DNA of 64,000 nt from Geothrix sp. SG200 (GTDB taxonomy: Bacteria > Acidobacteriota > Holophagae > Holophagales > Holophagaceae). Position numbers and translations under genes: made by a program. This document shows, piece after piece, positions 7,520-9,187 of this stretch (positions within the stretch are counted from its first letter, which is position 1; each line of letters starts with the position of its first letter). A model generated the notes under the pieces. The model made no database searches. It was not told the origin of the DNA and was given only the letters and a program-made list of their open reading frames with translations. The stretch spans positions 1,116,001-1,180,000 of the forward strand of contig NZ_JAKZFR010000001.1 of the NCBI RefSeq assembly GCF_022808935.1, given 5' to 3'.

Positions 7520-7549
7520 TTGACAGGGCCCGCGTGGATGGGGTTACAT
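7520..7549 (+). promoter_or_regulatory. Putative sigma-70 promoter of the trp operon
   Basis: A perfect TTGACA at 7520-7525 is followed after 18 bases by TTACAT (7544-7549), or after 17 bases by GTTACA. Transcription would start about 7555-7557, at or next to the ATG of the leader peptide (7557). Confidence 0.6.
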
Positions 7550-7556
7550 CGGTTCC

Positions 7557-7649
7557 ATGACGCTGTCCTCCCTGTCCCTTCGCCAGGGCTCCCTTCACGG
7601 GGCCTGGTGGTGGCGTGCGGGCTCGGACGGCTCCCTGTGCGAGGCCTAG
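7557..7649 (+). CDS. trpL: trp operon leader peptide (TrpL)
   Basis: A 30-codon frame, ATG 7557 to TAG 7649, with residues MTLSSLSLRQGSLHGAWWWR followed by ten more. Three consecutive TGG (Trp) codons lie at 7605-7613. Tryptophan is normally among the rarest residues, so three in a row in a tiny frame just upstream of trpE, followed by an attenuator, is diagnostic of a control peptide. Ribosome stalling on these codons when charged tRNA-Trp is scarce should leave segment 7618-7627 free to form the antiterminator. No ribosome-binding site can exist if transcription starts at 7555-7557, so translation may be leaderless. Confidence 0.88.
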   Translation: MTLSSLSLRQGSLHGAWWWRAGSDGSLCEA

Positions 7650-7705
7650 CGGCCCACGCCAACCCGGACCTTCCGAGCCCGACCATCCGGTCGGGCTTTT
7701 TCTTT
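7618..7705 (+). promoter_or_regulatory. Transcription attenuator of the trp operon
   Basis: Two exclusive pairings can be read. Antiterminator (2:3): CGGGCTCGGA at 7618-7627 with TCCGAGCCCG at 7672-7681, a perfect 10 bp. Terminator (3:4): GCCCGACC at 7677-7684 with GGTCGGGC at 7689-7696, 4-nt loop, then TTTTTCTTT at 7697-7705. The two share 7677-7681, so only one can form. Segment 2 begins five bases after the last Trp codon, so a ribosome stalled there masks segment 1 and favours the antiterminator, as in the classical trp design. trpE starts 97 bases after the U-run. Confidence 0.9.
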
Positions 7706-7801
7706 GATGTTTTCCGGTGGTTCCGCGCTTCGCGCACACCCCCCAGCCCCCACACACCCCACCCGGCAAAGCCGGTCTGTGGTTTTCTCAAGGTCTTCCC
7801 C

Positions 7802-9187
7802 ATGCACCTGATCCGACACTCGCTTCCTGCGGATCTGCTTACGCCCCTCGCCGCCTACCTGGCCCTGCGCCCGGCGGGCGCCAGCCTGCTGCTGGAATCC
7901 TGCGATCAGGGCGAGCGGGTGGGGCGCCACAGCTTCGTGCTGTTGGAGGGTTCCGCCGAATGCCGCCTGGCCCCTCCGGCCCGGGGCTGGATCGAATCTC
8001 TGCGGGCCCTGGCGGGGCCGCCGCCCGCCGGCGCCCTCCATGATCCCGCCGCGGAGCTGCCAGCGTTCAAGGTGCCCCTTCCCATCGGCGTGGGCTGCGC
8101 TGGTTACCTCGGCTTCGAGGCCGTGGGGGCCATGGAACCGTCACTGCCCCAGCCCGCCCGGGACAGCCTCGGCCTTCCCGGTCTCTGGGTGCGCCGCTTC
8201 GACACGGCCCTGGTCTTCGACCACCTGCACCAGGTGGCGGAACTTCAGACGCTGGACGCAGAACCGGAGGCCGGGTTCCGCCGCCTCCGCGGCCTCCGGG
8301 AGCAGCTCCTGGCGGGCGTCCGCGATCCGGGTTCCGCCGCGCCGGCTCCGCGAGCCGCCGCCCAGGTGGCCCGTGAGACCTACGAAGGCATGGTCCGCGC
8401 CGCCCAGGATCGGATCCTGGACGGCGACGTCTACCAGCTCGTACCCAGCCAGCGATTCCGCATCGAGAATCCGCCGCGGCCCCTGGAAGCCTACCGCCGC
8501 CTCCGCCGCCTGAACCCGAGCCCTTATGGCTTCCTGTTGGAGTGGGGGGACTTCTCCCTGGTGGGCGCTTCGCCGGAGATGCTGGTGCGGGTGCAGGACG
8601 GCGAGGCCGAGACCCTCCCCATCGCCGGCACCGTGCCCCGCGGCGAGAGCGCGGAGGAGGATGCGGCGCGGTTCGAGGCCCTGAAGCGAGACCCCAAGGA
8701 ACTGGCCGAGCACCAGATGCTGGTGGATCTGGCCCGCAACGACCTGGGCCGCGTGGCCGTTCCCGGCGGTGTCCGGGTGGAGAAGCCCCTCGCCCTCCAG
8801 CGCACGAGCCACGTGCTGCACCTCACCACCACCGTGAAGGCCAAGCTCCGGGAGGGCGTGGATGCCCTGGACGTGCTGGCGGCAGCCTTCCCGGCAGGCA
8901 CCGTGAGCGGCGCCCCCAAGCTGCGCGCCTGCCAGCGCATCGCGGAACTGGAAGGGGAGATGCGCGGGCCCTACGGCGGCGTGCTGCTGCGTCTGGGGAC
9001 GGATGGCGCCCTGGACACGGCCCTCATCCTGCGAACGGCAGTCTATGCGGACGGCGTCGCCCACATTCAGGCCGGCGCCGGCGTGGTGCGGGCCTCCAAG
9101 CCCGAATCCGAATACTTCGAGACCCTGCACAAGCTGGGCGCCATCGCGCAGGCCCTCGGCGTCCAGCTGCCCGGAGCCTCCCGATGA
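7802..9187 (+). CDS. trpE: Anthranilate synthase component I
   Basis: 461 aa starting MHLIRHSLPADLL at ATG 7802. It converts chorismate with ammonia from TrpG to anthranilate, the first step of tryptophan synthesis. The N-terminal LLLES motif (residues 29-33), which in known TrpE proteins forms the tryptophan feedback site, is intact. The catalytic C-terminal half has the family blocks YQLVPSQRF, NPSPYGFLLEWGDFSLVGASPEMLVRV, LPIAGTVPRGES, ELAEHQMLVDLARNDLGRV, FPAGTVSGAPKLRA and the ending IQAGAGVVRASKPESEYFET. It is slightly shorter than enterobacterial TrpE. Its stop overlaps the trpG start (ATGA). Confidence 0.96.
   Translation: MHLIRHSLPADLLTPLAAYLALRPAGASLLLESCDQGERVGRHSFVLLEGSAECRLAPPARGWIESLRALAGPPPAGALHDPAAELPAFKVPLPIGVGCAGYLGFEAVGAMEPSLPQPARDSLGLPGLWVRRFDTALVFDHLHQVAELQTLDAEPEAGFRRLRGLREQLLAGVRDPGSAAPAPRAAAQVARETYEGMVRAAQDRILDGDVYQLVPSQRFRIENPPRPLEAYRRLRRLNPSPYGFLLEWGDFSLVGASPEMLVRVQDGEAETLPIAGTVPRGESAEEDAARFEALKRDPKELAEHQMLVDLARNDLGRVAVPGGVRVEKPLALQRTSHVLHLTTTVKAKLREGVDALDVLAAAFPAGTVSGAPKLRACQRIAELEGEMRGPYGGVLLRLGTDGALDTALILRTAVYADGVAHIQAGAGVVRASKPESEYFETLHKLGAIAQALGVQLPGASR

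Follow-up and report, generated by a model that had tools for sequence, protein, structure and literature searches.

In E. coli, the trp leader encodes a peptide of 14 residues with two Trp codons (PMC1183508). In Sinorhizobium meliloti, trpL is leaderless, its transcript starting at the leader ATG, and both the RNA (rnTrpL) and the peptide (peTrpL) act in trans (PMC7298713). The trp attenuators of Corynebacterium and Streptomyces have two or three UGG codons, a GC-rich terminator, and an overlapping antiterminator (PMC1262725). According to a survey of 2010, which itself added a case from Firmicutes, leader-peptide systems had until then been described in Proteobacteria and Actinobacteria only; among the attenuators predicted in Acidobacteria, it noted an associated function for almost none (PMC2965389). 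A study of 2016 counted leader genes in Acidobacteria, with no link to trp in the passages concerned (PMC4833913), and Acidobacteria go unmentioned in two recent surveys of structured RNAs. Among the open papers in PMC, to which subscription reviews of trp regulation do not belong, we found none that describes trp attenuation in Acidobacteria or Geothrix. The mechanism discussed here is already known; the phylum, to judge from the literature that can be searched, is new.

Here, we describe a locus in Geothrix that very probably (roughly 0.93) attenuates transcription of the trp operon by a ribosome-mediated mechanism. It shares with E. coli trpL a leader peptide with Trp codons, hairpins resembling 1:2, 2:3, and 3:4, and a terminator before trpE. 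The Geothrix leader peptide has 30 residues and three Trp codons, compared with 14 residues and two Trp codons in E. coli; moreover, its antiterminator arm is not shielded by a ribosome at the stop codon, in contrast to that of E. coli, and the leader probably lacks a Shine-Dalgarno site. A first-pass annotation of this DNA had recognized all parts of the proteobacterial mechanism; the logic of that mechanism holds, while the E. coli geometry does not, in that the ribosome at the stop codon leaves the antiterminator arm uncovered and the ORF is apparently leaderless. Consecutive Trp codons and control of trpE are also found in trpLE(G) of S. meliloti, as is a start at the ATG, which is inferred for Geothrix; the S. 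meliloti peptide has 14 residues, compared with 30. The actinobacterial attenuators share the traits listed above with the Geothrix leader, a likeness between different phyla that is taken from published descriptions.

A putative attenuator precedes the trp operon of Geothrix

TrpE encoded in the window (the whole stretch of 64,000 nucleotides that was analyzed, at G000:C1:1116001-1180000) is 95-96% identical to TrpE of Geothrix terrae and G. paludis and 92% identical to that of G. fermentans DSM 14018, which identifies the host as Geothrix (Holophagaceae, Acidobacteriota), in agreement with the earlier guess of an acidobacterial host. Geothrix is a bacterium of soil and sediment. The operon order is trpE-G-D-C-(F)-B-A, with TrpF assigned by position only. 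For TrpE, trpE_most was the best-scoring model, with a score below the curated cut-off of that model, and the translation contains the LLLES motif that the first-pass annotation had pointed out. The gene upstream of the attenuator is divergent. The leader and its surroundings comprise the following parts, with positions as in the window:

7520-7549, + strand: promoter, with -35 box TTGACA (7520-7525), an 18-nt spacer, and -10 box TTACAT (7544-7549), recognized by conservation
7557-7649, + strand: leader ORF of 30 codons, peptide MTLSSLSLRQGSLHGAWWWRAGSDGSLCEA, stop codon TAG at 7647-7649; ATG invariant in 46 leaders
7562-7631, + strand: predicted anti-antiterminator hairpin across the ORF (like E. 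coli 1:2), from the minimum free energy fold and pair counts; base helix GCUGUCC (7562-7568) with GGACGGC (7625-7631)
7605-7613, + strand: Trp codons TGG-TGG-TGG, the putative stall site; two or three Trp codons kept in 46/46 leaders
7618-7627, + strand: antiterminator 5' arm (segment 2), CGGGCTCGGA, exact complement of 7672-7681
7643-7654, + strand: small hairpin GGCC-UAGC-GGCC with the stop codon inside; 98.9% of cells paired, nearly invariant
7672-7681, + strand: antiterminator 3' arm (segment 3), TCCGAGCCCG, exact 10-bp complement, overlapping the terminator 5' arm
7675-7705, + strand: intrinsic terminator and T run, namely, GAGCCCGACC-ATCC-GGTCGGGCTT (7675-7698) followed by TTTCTTT; 100% of cells paired in 46 leaders
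7802-9187, + strand: trpE, first gene of trpEGDC(F)BA

The 30-codon ORF with its TGG-TGG-TGG run, the 10-bp antiterminator, the overlapping terminator, and the distance of 97 bases from the end of the attenuator to the trpE start at 7802 had all been reported by the first-pass annotation and were found in place. Beyond it go the placement of the promoter, the ORF hairpin sequestering the antiterminator arm, and the position of the stop codon 19 nt past that arm. The 5' arm itself lies inside the ORF, 4 nt 3' of the Trp codons, and the small hairpin at 7643-7654 forms the inner part of the antiterminator structure. The locus, thus, contains the sequence features of a ribosome-mediated attenuator of an amino acid operon, in which read-through would depend on the charging of the cognate tRNA and on leader translation: a leader ORF with Trp codons, a terminator before the first gene, a mutually exclusive antiterminator, and a predicted hairpin over the Trp codons that sequesters the antiterminator arm.

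Scanning the window for a Trp-rich ORF with a terminator and an antiterminator (294 tiles, both strands) returned this single locus, with a score of 77. The same type of scan gave 6 hits (0.1%) on 5,341 dinucleotide shuffles of trpE upstream regions, the best of which scored 63. The leader transcript also folds more stably than 200 of 200 shuffles (z, −2.8).

An intergenic repeat, TTCCGCGCTTCGCGCACACCCC, is located at 7721-7742 and in eight other places in the host genome (at most two mismatches). Some Geothrix species carry it between the attenuator and trpE, where it stretches the gap from 17 to about 100 nt, and others lack it.

The leader is conserved across Geothrix and probably leaderless

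We built a covariance model from 46 distinct Geothrix leaders and searched it in 47 Geothrix genomes. One strong match was located directly upstream of trpE in 46 of these (E values from 1e-27 to 1e-43); since leaders that went into the model are bound to match it, what counts is the lack of a second strong copy in any of the genomes. The remaining genome, 58% complete, yielded neither a trpE match nor a leader match. Weaker matches within Geothrix genomes (E above 3e-4) were set aside as noise.

The Trp codons, the ORF length, and the spacing are kept in 40-46 distinct leaders. The Trp run reads WWW, YWW, WRW, SWW, WYW, or WFW in the 46 aligned leaders, none of which has fewer than two Trp codons. 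In all 40 tabulated leaders, the distance from the final Trp codon to the stop is 12 codons. The N-terminal half of the peptide varies freely between relatives. All cells of the terminator helix are paired, as are 97.1% of those of the antiterminator (23-52% with the partner slid) and 90.1% of those of the ORF hairpin (36-50% slid; base helix, 97.8%). At one antiterminator pair, there are seven C-G to U-A compensations, and the accompanying G-to-A change in segment 3 keeps the terminator paired too (A-U for G-U). Six pairs of the ORF hairpin have changes on both sides, e.g., UA to AU (L029 and L098) and GC to UA (L018). Single pairs are broken in a few leaders (L018 and L030). The leaders share kinship, and these pair counts are to be read as consistent support, not as a probability. 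Comparison of relatives shows that the parts exist, that they are strictly conserved in front of trpE, and that compensatory changes have occurred; it also bears out the retention of two or three Trp codons and of both stems, the test that the first-pass annotation had proposed. A further helix spotted by eye (7611-7617 with 7655-7661) was dropped, as only its core is kept in relatives.

A scan for consensus promoters detected none at the leader because the -10 box TTACAT is poor; it was conservation that exposed the promoter. In 40 of 40 upstream regions, TTGACA is followed by 17-18 nt of spacer and a -10 box resembling TTTCAT, which ends 6-7 nt before the ATG; among relatives, the -35 box is invariant and the -10 box mostly TTTCAT. 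Ordinary promoter spacing places the transcription start at or beside the leader ATG. The leader transcript is, therefore, probably leaderless, and a start at or next to the ATG would leave no space for a Shine-Dalgarno sequence.

Predicted folding supports stall-dependent antitermination

For this leader, we infer the transcription start site, the ribosome stalling, and the direction of the response as follows. Transcription would begin at or beside the leader ATG, as the promoter position suggests. When Trp-tRNA is scarce, the ribosome would stall on the Trp codons and open the ORF-spanning hairpin, freeing 7618-7627 to pair with 7672-7681; the terminator would then be blocked and trpEGDC(F)BA transcribed. 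When Trp-tRNA is ample, the ribosome would cross 7618-7627 during synthesis of the terminator region, the ORF hairpin could refold behind it, and the terminator at 7675-7698 would form.

We folded the leader at equilibrium with a modeled ribosome (29 nt masked) at each codon and treated 37 relatives likewise; three folding states were predicted. When the A site is placed on the first Trp codon and the terminator is fully made, the predicted antiterminator probability is 0.97 (median in the 37 relatives, 0.70). A ribosome over the antiterminator 5' arm brings this probability down to zero. If the ribosome sits at the stop codon or is absent, and the terminator is fully made, the terminator is predicted to win at equilibrium because the ORF hairpin recaptures the antiterminator arm. 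This stall-dependent pattern is robust for 3' footprint edges of 10-14 nt, and a longer 5' footprint (−20) shifts the favored stall position to later Trp codons. In three leaders from relatives outside the 37 (L094, L095, and L100), equilibrium folding gives the antiterminator no net gain.

As long as the terminator 3' arm is yet to be made, formation of the antiterminator is predicted both without a ribosome and with the ribosome at the stop codon (median, 0.99). Termination must, therefore, depend on timing or refolding, steps that equilibrium folding cannot show, and as modeled, the off state is the weakest step of the attenuation model. A modeling study described two routes to low basal read-through, namely, a stop codon far downstream or an anti-antiterminator structure that forms quickly (PMC1183508). 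The Geothrix leader looks able to use both.

Alternative explanations for the conserved leader

The leader could mainly yield a trans-acting small RNA or peptide, like rnTrpL/peTrpL of S. meliloti, with attenuation in cis being secondary. The precedent of a leaderless trpL with a trans-acting RNA and peptide (PMC7298713) and the predicted terminated Geothrix transcript, which is similar at about 145 nt, would suit this idea; however, conservation falls on the terminator, the antiterminator, and the hairpin and not on the N-terminal half of the peptide, and we consider it improbable that the trans product is the main one. A trans role is compatible with attenuation, and both could coexist. Still less probable is that trp is controlled through the same terminator by a T-box, TRAP-type binding, or a riboswitch. 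Any of these could work with a terminator ahead of trpE, but none of them needs a conserved ORF with Trp codons. In agreement with this, an Rfam scan of the leader gave no family at the gathering threshold and only chance matches at E values up to 10, with no match to RF00513 (Trp_leader) or T-box at either level.

Stems arise easily in GC-rich sequence, and a chance small ORF with hairpins, or a terminator belonging to the neighboring gene, would then mimic an attenuator. The low hit rate and the lower scores among shuffles argue against chance, and conservation in 46 leaders refutes it; the upstream gene is divergent, and a + strand terminator, therefore, cannot serve it. We regard these as the least credible of the explanations considered. 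Ribosome-mediated attenuation, thus, remains the reading that we favor.

Candidate attenuators in other Acidobacteriota and upstream of other operons

Among 130 trpE upstream regions, 40 score as attenuators, compared with 0.1% of shuffled sequences, although a negative region does not show absence because trpE need not be the first gene. The 40 come from Geothrix, other Holophagaceae genera, and 11 further families of Acidobacteriota with Trp leaders before trpE (f3, f5, f6, f8, f9, f21, f28, f35, f37, f59, and f64). Some of them, f28 in particular, have weak antiterminators. In six leaders of other families (L109-L111, L157, L173, and L175), the stop codon lies so near that a ribosome there would block the arm, an arrangement like that of E. 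coli.

Leaders of f3 (L110 and L111), f8 (L109), and f37 (L173) have in common a cluster of Trp residues and another Trp close to the end of the peptide; examples of such peptides are WWHTHFLGWASV, WRWYSSTRWAVS, and WWYYLSGWLVPF. The late Trp inside the antiterminator arm in these leaders may reflect common ancestry. Outside Acidobacteriota, a Deferrisomatales MAG (L061) has a Trp-Trp-Trp leader ORF and a terminator before trpE, with an unconvincing antiterminator.

Other operons were sampled gene by gene in a few genomes. In Geothrix, the gene for chorismate mutase/prephenate dehydratase is preceded by a candidate Phe attenuator, made up of a Phe-rich leader ORF (MTAARAFFFSFRTPGARVGGV and relatives) and, behind it, a GC-rich hairpin with TTTT (L247, L250, and L248, the last in G000:C5 directly upstream of 104954). 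In another Holophagaceae genus, the pheA-like gene has before it a candidate leader rich in Phe and Tyr (TFTFTPAARRYYYGGGGG) and a terminator (L238/L243 in G093, L239 in G090, and L244 in G089); the trp-leader model matches this leader too, at an E value of about 1e-5. In two Holophagaceae genera other than Geothrix, two His-rich leader ORFs in tandem, with a hairpin after each, are located upstream of hisG (L261 in G083, L262, L263, L264, and L213) and are possible his attenuators. The upstream regions of trpS, ilvB, and Geothrix hisG contained no clear attenuator.

Discussion

A broader reading of these data is tentative, and we would sooner doubt it than assume it: attenuation might be an old, phylum-wide control of trp, and locally of phe and his, in Acidobacteriota, with a distinct leaderless form in Holophagaceae whose off state would depend on timing and on refolding of the ORF hairpin behind the ribosome and not on a ribosome that sits at the stop codon and covers the arm.

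Attenuation seems to be in use in many families of a major soil phylum, and their leaders vary in both sequence and geometry. These leaders form a natural series for asking whether attenuation was inherited or arose repeatedly and what sets basal read-through, and they suggest a likely function for many unannotated short ORFs.
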